From: Halichondria panicea
Taxonomy: Eukaryota > Porifera > Demospongiae > Suberitida > Halichondriidae
Length of the DNA stretch: 22,500 nucleotides
Assembly: GCF_963675165.1 (NCBI RefSeq)
Contig: NC_087385.1
Span: 5,929,412-5,951,911 of the forward strand
Direction: 5' to 3'
The first letter of the stretch is position 1. Each line of letters starts with the position of its first letter. Under the pieces are notes generated by a model, which was given only the letters and a program-made list of their open reading frames with translations, had not been told where the DNA came from and searched no databases. Of the stretch, positions 10,154-17,959 are shown piece by piece. The translations under genes were made by a program, and so were the position numbers.

Positions 10154-12008
10154 ATGAAGAAGAAGGTGAGTTGTTGTCTCATCTTGAGTCTGTATTAAGG
10201 CCAGCTAGCTAGTGACTGTGTAAATTGGTGAGCCAACCCATCCCATGATTTCATCACCCCTTGTGTGTGTACTGCAGGTGCTGTTAATGGGGAAGAGTGG
10301 GTCAGGAAAGACTAGTATGAGATCAATCATCTTTGCAAACTATATTGCGAGGGACACAAGACGACTAGGAGCAACAAGTAAGGATTCATTGTTTACTATA
10401 GTACCCCATTAAAACACGTGTTCTGTTCTATAGTTGATGTGGAGCACTCACATGTTCGATTCCTTGGCAACCTGGTCTTGAACCTGTGGGACTGTGGCGG
10501 GTACGTATACAGTACAATCATATATAGCCACTTATACCCAATTGGCTAATCACTATCCACACACACCCACACACAGACAAGAAGCGTTTATGGAGAACTA
10601 TTTCACGAGTCAGAGAGATAATGTGTTTCGCAATGTGGAGGTGCTGATCTATGTGTTTGATGTTGAGAGCAGGGAGGTGGAGCGAGACATGCACTATTAT
10701 CAGTCCTGTCTGGAGGCCATCTTGCAGAACTCACCTGAAGCCAAGGTCTTCTGTCTCATCCACAAGATGGATCTCATCCCAGAAGACCAAAGAAGTGTGG
10801 TGAGTGTGTGACGTACAGACTGTACAATGTGTAGTGCCTGCAATTTTTCAGGTCTTGGTTTTTAAAATACATGTAGATTGTAGGGTCGCCTAGCTATCTT
10901 AAATTCTGTGCCAAAATCTGTTGTATTTACTTAAGCTTCACTGTTCATTGTGATTCCCTCAGATCTACGACAAAAGAGAGTCTGAGTTAAAGAAGAGATC
11001 TCTCCCATTGGATTGTACTTGCTTCAAAACCTCCATTTGGGACGAAACCCTCTACAAGGTAAACAAATGTAGTGATGCAATAAGTATATTTACAAGTATG
11101 TATTGTATGTTTCTCCCAGGCCTGGTCAAACATAGTGCATTTACTCATCCCCAATGTCCACTACCTGGAGTCCAGTCTAAGCAACTTTGCCACTATCTTG
11201 GATGCTGACGAAGTGCTTCTCTTTGAGAGAGCCACCTTTCTGGTGAGTCATAGTAGCAACCCATACCTGGGCCAAGAGATTGTTGTGTGTGGAGGAATAT
11301 ATGCTTTGTGTTCTTGGTGTTGAGTCAGTTCTTAATGAGTATCTCATTTGTCCATTCATAATAGACAAGTTGCTTGTGTGTAGCTCCGCTTACGTAGTTA
11401 TTATGTGTGTGTGTTCGAGACGGTATTGTGAGGACGGTTCTCCTGCACAGGTGATAGCCCACTCTGTGCGGCGGCCTCACGCGGATGTCCATCGCTTTGA
11501 GAAGATTAGTAACATTGTCAAGCAATTCAAGCTCAGTTGTAGGTGAGTATCTGATCACACTTTGCTCTGAAGAGGTTTGTATTGTACCTGTCTCCATTCC
11601 AGTAAACTCCAAGCCCAGTTCCAGAGTATGGAAGTCAGAAATTCATGTTTTGCTTCTTTCATCGACATCTTTACTCCAAACACATACGTGATGGTCATCA
11701 TGTCCGACCCTGACATACGTGAGTCAATTAAAAAGAGAACATAGATATCAGAATTGTCAGTATAATTATATGTATATAGTAGTCTGGGAGCCAGACCTTT
11801 CTTTGGAGAGCTGCTCTCCTTGATTTTGCCCCCGAGAATAGGTCTGGCCCCCCAGACTAATGTATATAGAAGTTTACCACATTGCTTGCTCCTCACAGCA
11901 TCAGCCGCAACTCTGGTGAACATCAGAAATGCTAGGAAATACTTTGAGAAGATTGAGCGGTTAGAAGGCACTCTACCGGCCACTGCAGTACCGCCAAAGT
12001 TCCAATAA
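10154..12008 (+). CDS. RagA/B-type GTPase of the mTORC1 amino-acid pathway
   Basis: Exons 10154-10165, 10278-10377, 10434-10500, 10577-10799, 10963-11058, 11120-11242, 11451-11542, 11603-11718 and 11899-12008 give 312 residues (human RagA 313). RagA/B pairs with RagC/D on the lysosome and brings mTORC1 there when amino acids are plentiful. The P-loop GKSGSGKTS (9-17), switch I region ending GATID (35-39), WDCGGQ (56-61) and HKMD (122-125) are intact, so it should bind and hydrolyse GTP. The C-terminal half (about 175-312) is the roadblock-type dimerisation domain, including [15 protein letters not shown] and [13 protein letters not shown]. The first coding exon is only 12 bp (MKKK). A fused, degenerate copy follows 214 bp downstream in the same orientation. 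Confidence 0.96.
11781..11858. mobile_element. Foldback (MITE-like) inverted repeat in the last RagA intron
   Basis: AGTCTGGGAGCCAGACCT (11781-11798) is mirrored by AGGTCTGGCCCCCCAGACT (11840-11858): near-perfect inverted arms about 18-19 bp long. A shorter palindrome between them, GGAGAGCTGCTCTCC, lies at about 11805-11819. AT-rich TATATA-type flanks lie on both sides. There is no coding capacity, so at most this is a non-autonomous element. It sits wholly within intron 11719-11898. Confidence 0.6.
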
Positions 12009-12131
12009 GCAATATTAATGGACCTATCAGTGTGATGCTTTTTTTGTTTGTTCAGTATTAAATGTGTATTGTATATCTTTTAAATCGTTGGCACATAATA
12101 ATTATTGTACAAAGTTATGAATATCATGTAT

Positions 12132-12221: not shown

Positions 12222-14950
12222 ATGAGGAAGGTAAGCTAGCTGTATGTTTACAGTAATTACTCTAATAAACTGCTTCTCTGCAGGTCATCTTGATGGGTGA
12301 AAGCACTGGTGTCGGGAGCATGAGGAGAATCGTGTTCTCAACCTTTTTACCATGGGAAGCCAGTACGTGTGCCATAATAGCTAGACGACTGCGTGTGGTG
12401 TTATGCTTGTAAACACATGTATCAGCATTATAAATATTTCAGAGACAAAGCCGCCAGTTTCTCCCTTGGTAAACGTACTCTTTGACAAATTTGAGATTGT
12501 TACAGTCAGGGCTAAAAGATACAGGTAGAGTCTAAACTCCAAGCAATTTCCAATGCCTGATCGATGCATATGTCTTTTTTTGTGTCTACAGTGGGGAGGA
12601 TGGCAGCCAGCTCTTTACTGATGTTGAAGCAGTCATTTATGTTATGGATGTGAAAAGCAAGGAATGTGAGAAAGATATGGACGATTACAAGACATGTCTG
12701 TTTGAACAGATTATTAAGTATTCTCCTACTGCTAAAGTGTTCTGTCTTGTTCACCAAATGGACCTTGTTCCTAAGAACCAAAGAAAAATGGTTATTAAAA
12801 ACAAAAATGTTAGTGATTAATAGACTATATCAAGTGCTTTTTCCACTAGATCTTCAAAAAGAGAGAGGACGAAATTGAGAAGAATTCGCTTCCGTACAAG
12901 TGTGTTTGTTTTGCCACCTCAATTTGGGATGAGACGTTGTACAAGGTATATATGCTGTAACCATGTTCACTGATTACATCTAATAGTTTGTGTGCTGTTG
13001 TGCAGGCATGGTCTGCTATCGTCCGCTCCATTGTCCCTAATCTTAGCCAGCTGGATGCTTGTGCAAAACACCTTAGTGACTTGTTGGATGCCAACGAAGT
13101 TGTACTGTTTCACAAGCTCACATACCTGGTATCAAAATTAATTATGCGTTTGTGTTGAACCCAAAATTATTGTGATATGATTTCAGACCCTAGCACATGT
13201 AGTGCGTAAACCCCATTCTGATAACCTCCGATTTGAAAAGATCAGCAACATTATGAAGCAGTTTAAACTCAGCTGTGCCATGTAAGTGGCTTATAAAACA
13301 ACCAATTTTGCATCATTTTGTCAATTTGTTAATTACTGTCGCAGGAGGCTCTGTGCTGTTCAAGATATGGAGGTGCGGAACTCGTGTTTTGCTGCTTTCA
13401 TATGCAGTTTCACGGCAGACCTTATCGTAATGATTGTTTCAGCCAATCCAAAGCTACGTGAGTGTCTTATTGTCAAAGTCTATTTTTCTTCTGTCATAAG
13501 TTATATTATGCAGAACTTTTCACTGTAAAAAGAGTTCTTCAGGGGAATTTGGATATGGTAGTGCCACCAGCCACTGTGATACCTGAATTGGATGGTAGGT
13601 CTATCAACTTTTTTATTTATACTTATAGTAACCACACACACATTCACAGTGGAACAAAGTGCTAGAGAAAAGTCAGATGTTAGACAAGCTGTTGACCAAC
13701 CTTCTGATCACGAGCAATCGTGTCAAGCCAACGTGGACAGTCCATTGAGTGCAGTGGCTAAAGAGATTGAAGAAGCAGAATCACGAATCAAAGAAGCTAA
13801 GAAACTTTTGGAGGAGGTGACCGCTCAGCAACAAATGGAAAAACAACATGATGCTGGTTCAAAGTCGAATGAAGAAGAAAAGATCCAATTCATGAAACAA
13901 TTGCTTGACAAGCAAGATATATGCATCTGGAATCAGTTTGTTCGAGTGAAGCAGTTAAAACAACAATGCAAGGAACAGGAACAACTACAAGAGGAATCAC
14001 AGCAGACAAATATGGAATTGGAACGAAGAGTTGAGGCTGCTGAGCAACTAAAAGAGGACTCACAGCAGACAAACATGGACTTGGAACGAAGAGTTGAGGC
14101 TGCTGAGCATCTACAAGAGGACTCACAGCAGACAAACGTAGAATTGGAACGAAGAGTTGAGATTGCTGAGCAAAGAGTGACAGAGCTGGAGACACAGTGG
14201 GTTGTCAATAGAGAGGAGATCGATATGACAGACCAAGAGCTTGGTGTGGGCGCTTGGGGAGTCGTGAAGGTCGCCATGTTTCGAGGAACTGAAGTAGCTG
14301 CCAAAATGATGCACCAGCAAATCCAATCCGATTACTATCGCGATCTATTCGTTCGTGAAATAAACAATGCAGCTCGACTTCGACATCCAAACCTCACACA
14401 ATTTATTGGTGCAACCATTGAAGGTGACATGATAATTCTAACAGAGCTTCTCCACACAAGTCTTAGAAAAAGTCTTGAGCAAAGTGGATCCATCTCTCGA
14501 GAACAGATCATTGGAGTCAGTTTGGATGTTTGCAAAGCATTGAACTATCTACATCTAATGCGACCTGAACCTTTCGTGCATCGAGATGTGAGCAGTGCAA
14601 ACGTCCTCTTGGAAAAGCTCTCAGAAAATCTGTGGAAAGCCAAGCTAGCTGATTATGGAACTGTTAATTACTTGTGTCGACTTGAAACAGAGGTACCTGG
14701 AAACATAACGTATGCAGCACCCGAAGCTGTCTCCCCTTCCCAGCAATCACCTAAAATGGACGTGTTCAGTTTTGGAATTCTCCTGATTGAGATGTGTACT
14801 GGAAAGTTCCCTGAGGTCGATGCTCGCAACCGACTTATCAGTCAGATAAAGGATCGTTCGTTTGTAAAACTTCTCCGAAAATGCATAATTCATAACAAGG
14901 ACAAAAGACCAGAAATTACTGAAGTATTGTTTGATCTGTCTAGATTTTAG
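12222..14950 (+). CDS. Pseudo-RagA GTPase - coiled coil - TKL-like protein kinase fusion
   Basis: Exons 12222-12230, 12284-12362, 12443-12524, 12592-12790, 12850-12945, 13006-13128, 13187-13281, 13345-13457, 13514-13594 and 13650-14950 give 725 residues. Residues 1-292 are a diverged RagA/B copy. Its P-loop is GESTGVGS (no Lys), the DCGGQ switch is absent, and HKMD is HQMD; the C-terminal dimerisation part is well kept ([36 protein letters not shown]). Residues about 320-480 are a coiled coil with three 21-residue repeats. Residues about 485-725 are a kinase: Gly loop LGVGAWGVV, Lys511 in VAAK, Glu529, HRD 603-605 with Asn610, DYG 627-629, APE 649-651, DVFSFG. All catalytic residues are present, so activity is expected. 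One donor (12790) is uncertain, with 12808 as an alternative. Inferred role: a kinase tethered through Rag-type dimerisation. Confidence 0.85.
13978..14166 (+). repeat. Three tandem 63-bp coding repeats (21-residue coiled-coil units)
   Basis: Units at 13978-14040, 14041-14103 and 14104-14166 each encode a variant of EQLKEDSQQTNMDLERRVEA. A 63-bp period equals three heptads, so added or lost units keep both the reading frame and the coiled-coil register. The copies differ by only a few bases, so the expansion looks recent. Confidence 0.92.
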
Positions 14951-15154
14951 AATCATTATGACATTGTGTTTGAGTGTGTGTCTATTAAATTTTTCATATA
15001 ATTATGGTGTCAAGCAAAGGGTGTGGCATTGGAGTGGGCGTGGCTGAATACCCACATGGTCATGGTGTAGCTACATGTACATTGCAGAGAATCGCTCTCT
15101 TGTTCAGTTCTTACCGCTAGCTAGCTCAAGCTACGCACCCGTTCACCGTTCAAG
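14951..15154. other. Intergenic region between the Rag-kinase gene and UCKL1
   Basis: ATTAAA at 14984-14989, 34 bp after the kinase stop, is a candidate polyadenylation signal. The rest must hold the UCKL1 promoter and 5' UTR. A GGGCGTGG string near 15036 is GC-box-like. No coding signal was seen. Confidence 0.5.

Positions 15155-17959
<2,805 letters not shown>

Follow-up and report, generated by a model that had tools for sequence, protein, structure and literature searches.

Does a degenerate copy of the RagA gene share one polypeptide with a protein kinase, and if so, how could such a protein have come about and what might it do? The question is raised by positions 12222-14950 of the window, by which we mean the whole stretch of 22,500 nucleotides analyzed here (contig C9, 5929412-5951911, of the 131-Mb genome that was searched, G000). 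Gene models for RagA and for the Rag-kinase gene were both assembled manually on the basis of splice sites and protein similarity, and RagA served as the guide for the choice of splice sites. The features are as follows.

10154-12008, + strand: ordinary RagA gene, the parent of the copy; nine exons, 312 amino acids in the spliced frame, Gtr1_RagA at 327 bits
12132-12137, + strand: AATAAA hexamer, 3' of RagA and 5' of the copy (hexamer scan)
12222-12524, + strand: exons 1-3 of the copy, beginning of the G domain in degenerate form, without P-loop, switch I and DxxG; RagA intron phases 0, 1, 2
12592-12945, + strand: exons 4-5 of the copy, well-kept second half of the G domain; 34/65 and 22/32 residues identical to RagA
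13006-13457, + strand: exons 6-8 of the copy, most of the C-terminal roadblock domain; 17/41, 22/30 and 19/37 residues identical to RagA
13514-13594, + strand: exon 9 of the copy, RagA C-terminal helix unrecognizable; 5/26 residues identical to RagA
13595-13649, + strand: putative fusion intron (the ninth), 55 bases, phase 1; donor in the top 3.1% of GT in the window, acceptor at 13649 in the top 14.2% of AG
13650-14197, + strand: start of the kinase exon, coiled coil; three 63-base repeats and a predicted helix
14198-14950, + strand: protein kinase region (from residue 482) and stop codon; Pkinase at 123.2 bits, residues 493-723
14984-14989, + strand: ATTAAA hexamer 3' of the kinase (hexamer scan)

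Gene model

Ten exons (12222-12230, 12284-12362, 12443-12524, 12592-12808 or 12592-12790, 12850-12945, 13006-13128, 13187-13281, 13345-13457, 13514-13594 and 13650-14950, all on the forward strand) join into a single stop-free frame of 731 residues that terminates at 14950. All nine introns are of the GT..AG type, and the 2196 coding bases contain neither a stop nor a frameshift. Exon 4 has two in-frame donors, after 12790 or after 12808, whose alternative use omits or adds six residues (window 12791-12849). Compared with RagA, exons 1-8 of the copy have changed in length by -3, -21, +15, -6 or -24, 0, 0, +3 and -3 bases, every one a multiple of three. Pfam recognized Gtr1_RagA in the model protein at 160.2 bits (residues 3-225; cut-off 22) together with Pkinase at the score given above. 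The GC content at third codon positions is 0.47 in the Rag copy versus 0.39 in the kinase exon, which counts against one gene. An earlier, sequence-only reading had placed the RagA copy, the coiled coil and the kinase in one chain; phase-compatible introns indeed link all the parts, and the junctions that it had proposed, 13457/13514 and 13594/13650, were recovered in the rebuilt model. On this hand-built model, the Rag copy and the kinase very probably constitute one fused coding gene.

Origin and fate of the Rag copy

The parent RagA is an ordinary one, whose G domain agrees with that of human RagA at 148 of 175 residues. It is separated by 213 bases from the second gene, which starts at 12222. 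Introns 1-8 of the Rag-kinase gene match those of RagA in both position and phase (0, 1, 2, 0, 0, 0, 2, 1), and a RagA query of the genome matched only its own gene and the copy. The RagA gene at 10154-12008 was duplicated in tandem together with its introns, and the Rag copy is the product. Retroposition was ruled out as its origin, because all eight RagA introns are retained.

The losses are concentrated in the first part of the G domain. Identity to RagA is 11/26 residues in exon 2 and 3/19 in exon 3. The ten residues of the RagA P-loop align with GES-TGVGSM in the copy, and switch I and DxxG are unrecognizable, exon 3 being devoid of a DxxG. The earlier claim that the nucleotide-binding motifs had been lost is thus borne out by the alignment, and it is unlikely, judging from these residues, that the Rag half functions as a GTPase. 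Further along, HKMD of RagA is HQMD in the copy, and both SIWDETLYK, which we take to be a strand, and a 15-residue segment, presumably a helix, are retained. Among solved structures, human RagA was the best match of the copy by sequence (E=4.7e-66); over residues 183-302 of human RagA, 47 of 107 aligned residues are identical, and exon 9 makes up the last, poorly matching part. We infer that alpha-3 is encoded by exon 9. Toward the end of this exon, 13 of 18 ungapped bases (13567-13584) agree with the RagA codons for PATAVPP, the best non-self 18-mer on the forward strand of the window. A local DNA alignment of this exon with RagA exon 9 was not significant, 175 of 2000 shuffles being as good, and lends no support to homology of the two exons as wholes.

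We simulated neutral change of the copy alongside a constrained RagA lineage (300 runs, 224 aligned codons from exon 4 on). The Rag copy has no stop in its 224 codons; the simulated copies had 5.8 on average, and at least one stop arose in 300/300 runs. The amino-acid identity of the copy to RagA, 0.53 versus a neutral mean of 0.52 in the same simulation, is indistinguishable from neutral drift. This simulation replaced a first one, run likewise on 224 codons from exon 4 on, in which all change was placed on the copy (mean 7.6 stops, minimum 2; identity at most 0.36 versus the 0.53 observed) and which was less fair. With the fairer simulation the argument from identity falls away, leaving only the absence of stops. 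As evidence, dN/dS was discarded as uninformative, since the synonymous sites are saturated (pS 0.85). The frame of the Rag copy has been kept open; constraint at the level of residues finds no support in the identity, which is at the neutral level.

Coiled coil and kinase domain

The three repeats of 63 bases, each of 21 residues or three heptads, lie at 13982-14173 (Tandem Repeats Finder). AlphaFold, run on the kinase exon alone from the single sequence, predicted a helix over residues 71-189 of the exon, with block pLDDT values of 64-87 up to residue 180; the kinase part had pLDDT below 50 and is not interpretable in that model. The sequence-only reading had listed a glycine loop, the VAAK lysine, the alpha-C glutamate, HRD, its asparagine, DYG and APE as all present. 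A motif check (LGVGAWG from 496, VAAK at 514-517, REI at 534-536, HRDVSSAN from 609, DYG at 633-635, APE at 655-657) and an alignment with the paralogs confirmed the list; the Lys, the Glu, HRD, the Asn and the D and G of DxG are kept in 20/20 aligned paralogs. Two positions after HRD, the window kinase and 20/20 paralogs have Ser. Many active kinases have Lys or Ala at this place. The kinase looks intact and is putatively active, with the Ser after HRD counting against activity.

Among the 60 of 1804 PDB matches considered, the kinase matched CTR1, TAK1, TNNI3K, MAP3K12 and IRAK4, assumed here to be TKL kinases, but also CSK, ITK and MEK1, assumed to belong to other groups; MAP3K9 was matched as well. 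On this mixed list, an assignment to the TKL group would be tentative. A search with six short peptide patterns of the fusion found nothing in viral_contigs and, in genome_contigs, one kinase-like match (query residues 496-686) in a bacterial record; neither collection was built from animal genomes. Downstream of the kinase gene, an open frame at 15460-15747 carries a P-loop, GGSASGKTT, and resembles uridine kinases by eye.

A kinase exon family with exchangeable fronts

A protein search of the genome with the kinase exon returned at least 97 matching stretches, the window included. By contig, the matches listed comprise 68 on C9 (nearly all below 2.5 Mb), 18 on C3, three on C10 and a few elsewhere. 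One kinase family is greatly expanded in this genome. The window kinase is unlikely to be a collapsed or mis-assembled copy from the kinase array, as its closest match among the 20 paralog kinases of the tree reaches 62% identity.

For a survey of the modules 5' of the kinase exon, 21 loci were fetched (L001-L021). Upstream on the same strand we found Kelch at ten loci, Neuralized at four, a CYLD-like module at two, UEV at one and Hsp70 at one, with none recognized at three (L010, L019 and L011, the last being a short stretch only). The Kelch loci are L001-L007, L014, L018 and L021, Pfam having been run on four of them. Neuralized scored above the Pfam cut-off at L012 and L015 and just below it at L016 and L017. 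The CYLD-like module of L020 matches PDB 2vhf (4.4e-13), and L013 is at 88% to L020; the module retains NSCYLDS, which we take to contain the catalytic Cys. L020 also has a CAP-Gly-like stretch below the cut-off, and in both L013 and L020 the deubiquitinase part lies on the same strand as the kinase exon. L008 has a UEV exon of the TSG101 type 5' of a kinase exon whose kinase reads DCG instead of DFG. At L009 (G000:C16:2688500-2695500, minus strand), a single uninterrupted frame of 1034 residues encodes both Hsp70 (597 bits) and the kinase and needs no splicing model, and at L012 the second half of Neuralized and the kinase likewise share one frame without a splicing model. The remaining fusions rest on exons found upstream on the same strand.

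The Kelch loci bear most directly on the window gene. A phase-1 donor and acceptor were found by pattern at 8/10 of them and the donor alone at 2/10, the phase having been read from the frames at L004, L007, L014 and L018. Seven of the eight Kelch-type kinase frames read have their first Met as late as residue 131-243, within the coil or beyond it; the eighth, that of L004, opens with an ATG inside intron sequence. Kelch-type kinase exons seem to need upstream exons, because in those seven the first Met comes so late. The common phase-1 intron makes splicing from the RagA copy into the kinase exon credible.

A kinase tree was computed from the window and 20/21 loci; L021, with a stop interrupting its kinase frame, was excluded. 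The kinase of the window forms a group with eight VAAK kinases (L001-L007, L011; support 96/94), on a long branch whose placement the tree program calls unsure. Two of the Kelch loci, L014 and L018, have kinases of another subtype, which branch elsewhere in the tree. In L014, L018 and L019 a Kelch-type linker precedes this other kinase subtype (VAVK/VAIK, DLG), a pattern such as recombination between two kinase genes within the coiled coil would leave. L021 (G000:C16:3896900-3902500), with its stop codon in the kinase frame, is a Kelch-kinase locus outside C9. It seems that a kinase exon has been joined to different fronts several times, the Rag-kinase gene being one of the results. The kinase is not specific to Rag, its family being found behind Kelch, Neuralized, CYLD-like, UEV and Hsp70 modules as well.

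The fusion junction and alternative readings

The donor of the fusion intron sits about one codon upstream of the RagA stop position, as judged by the 13/18-base match. The donor is fair and the acceptor mediocre by rank; the acceptor of RagA's own third intron is in the top 17.9% of AG. The final junction, 13594/13650, is plausible and unproven, because its acceptor is only in the top 14.2%. The unspliced Rag frame continues for 23 residues to a stop at 13663, and a Rag-only product is possible by retention of the fusion intron. Within 13580-13960, the only ATGs in the kinase frame are 13592 (at the donor), 13835 and 13892, and translation of the kinase from 13592 is possible. In 3 of the 97 matches listed, paralogs are already similar from exon residues 5-10 on, upstream of both 13835 and 13892. 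AATAAA or ATTAAA hexamers occur at 12057 and 12132 after RagA, at 12264 (AATAAA) and 12794 (ATTAAA) inside the copy, at 14359 inside the kinase exon and at 14984; the scan of the window found neither hexamer between 12794 and 14359.

These observations bear on a reading with two adjacent genes, in which a degenerate RagA copy ends at 13663 by intron retention and a separate kinase gene begins at ATG 13592 or 13835. The open Rag frame to 13663, the in-frame ATGs at both places, the weak fusion acceptor and the L004 kinase frame, likewise opened by an ATG within intron sequence, all agree with it. However, the stretch between 12794 and 14359 lacks AATAAA and ATTAAA, a start at 13835 would forfeit the sequence conserved in paralogs from exon residue 5-10 (in those 3 of 97 matches listed), a start at 13592 would translate the T-rich intron as a hydrophobic N-terminus, and the nearest paralogs seem to depend on an upstream exon of the same phase. 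We consider two genes improbable. It is also conceivable that the fusion arose and no longer makes a working protein. Exons 3 and 9 are almost unrecognizable, amino-acid identity is no better than in the conservative neutral simulation, and the saturated synonymous sites yield no useful dN/dS, all of which would suit a fading pseudogene; set against this are the 2196 coding bases without stop or frameshift, the fact that 0/300 simulations remained stop-free, and the retention of the catalytic motifs that were checked. A pseudogene is quite unlikely in our estimate, somewhat more so than two genes.

A different function for the whole family was weighed as well, namely that its members are immune-type receptors whose modules copy host proteins attacked by pathogens, the dead Rag being the bait of an integrated decoy and tampering with it activating the kinase. 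The size of the family (at least 97 related kinase stretches, 68 of those listed on C9, the window included), the swapping of front modules that resemble host proteins and a Rag module without GTP-binding motifs are in keeping with this idea, and excerpts of two papers offer precedents from immunity in plant NLR-IDs and the wheat Lr9 tandem kinase fusion (PMC4759884, PMC10260399). Against it, the present analysis contains no link of the kinase family to immunity, and degeneration does not extend to every module, since the CYLD-like one still has NSCYLDS. We rate the decoy reading as unlikely, between the two readings above. By analogy with the plant proteins, the broader proposal would be an animal family of modular receptor-like kinases that act as decoys or sensors, in which the dead RagA would be a bait that signals when the lysosomal nutrient-sensing hub is attacked or disturbed; this is a speculative suggestion, to which we give as little credence as to the pseudogene.

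Proposed mechanism and significance

In the fusion reading that we prefer, the RagA gene would have been duplicated in tandem, introns included, and the downstream copy would then have lost the use of its own stop codon, being spliced instead through a phase-1 intron to a large intronless exon for coiled coil and kinase. The product would be one protein of 731 residues. Its Rag part, no longer GTP-binding, would act as a fixed docking module; with a dead G domain, the protein, if working, would be a fixed adaptor rather than a switch. Docking would most likely take place by pairing of the roadblock domain with RagC, the coiled coil would dimerize the protein, and two kinase domains would be brought together at lysosomal Rag-containing complexes. 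Taken as a whole, this explanation (duplication, fusion to a shuffled kinase exon, a dimeric kinase docked on RagC) seems to us reasonably probable. The pairing with RagC is plausible, since the copy has preserved the central helix and much of the remainder, with 22 of 30 residues of exon 7 identical to RagA, and binding of the Rag part to RagC is suggested tentatively on the strength of such residues. The presumptive RagC of this genome is a match at C13:6546665-6547273. Placement on Ragulator, as earlier envisaged, is weakened to the point of being doubtful, because the last helix, that of exon 9, is unrecognizable (5/26). A search for the LAMTOR family had no match in the genome or in any of all 14 controls, and is hence uninformative.

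If the gene is expressed, a Rag relic would deliver a kinase to RagC-containing complexes, a possible direct coupling of phosphorylation to the lysosomal nutrient hub. Beyond this gene, six kinds of module (Rag, Kelch, Neuralized, CYLD-like, UEV and Hsp70) stand before related kinase exons in the window and 21 loci of one animal genome. The family makes exon shuffling of a signaling output directly observable and testable.

Comparison with known systems

The sequence-only reading knew of no described Rag-kinase fusion, and the literature search agrees: neither such a fusion nor the kinase exon family appears in the titles or abstract starts among the top open-access PMC matches listed. The copy resembles RagA/Gtr1 in sequence, in intron positions and phases, and in most of the second half of the G domain and the roadblock domain; it differs in having no P-loop, switch I, DxxG or recognizable C-terminal helix, and in the attached kinase. 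In the leucine-zipper MAP3Ks DLK (MAP3K12) and MLK1 (MAP3K9), a dimerizing coil adjoins the kinase. Their kinases are similar to that of the fusion, which differs in domain order and in its N-terminal Rag module. In Roco proteins such as LRRK2, too, one chain carries a Ras-like domain and, after it, a kinase, and LRRK2 is a distant PDB match of the kinase (8tzg). The fusion differs in that its Ras-like part is a dead Rag copy, a coiled coil lies between the two, and Roc and COR have no match. Membership in Roco was rejected, the only Pfam families at E<=0.01 being Gtr1_RagA, Pkinase and PK_Tyr_Ser-Thr. The comparison with Roco/LRRK drawn earlier is the wrong frame, because the kinase belongs to a large exon family placed behind many modules.

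In plant NLR-IDs and wheat tandem kinase fusion proteins, a signaling protein has repeatedly been fused to other host domains, according to excerpts of the two papers cited above (PMC4759884, PMC10260399). Repeated fusion with host domains is common to those systems and to the present family; Pfam found no NB-ARC, LRR or second kinase in the fusion. The Kelch-coiled coil-kinase genes of the same genome have a homologous kinase exon (the closest in the tree being 62% identical), a coiled coil and a phase-1 intron, and differ in carrying Kelch exons where the window gene has its Rag copy. With its homologous exon, its coiled coil and a phase-1 join upstream, as in the Kelch branch, the fusion gene fits the family of coiled-coil kinase exons.
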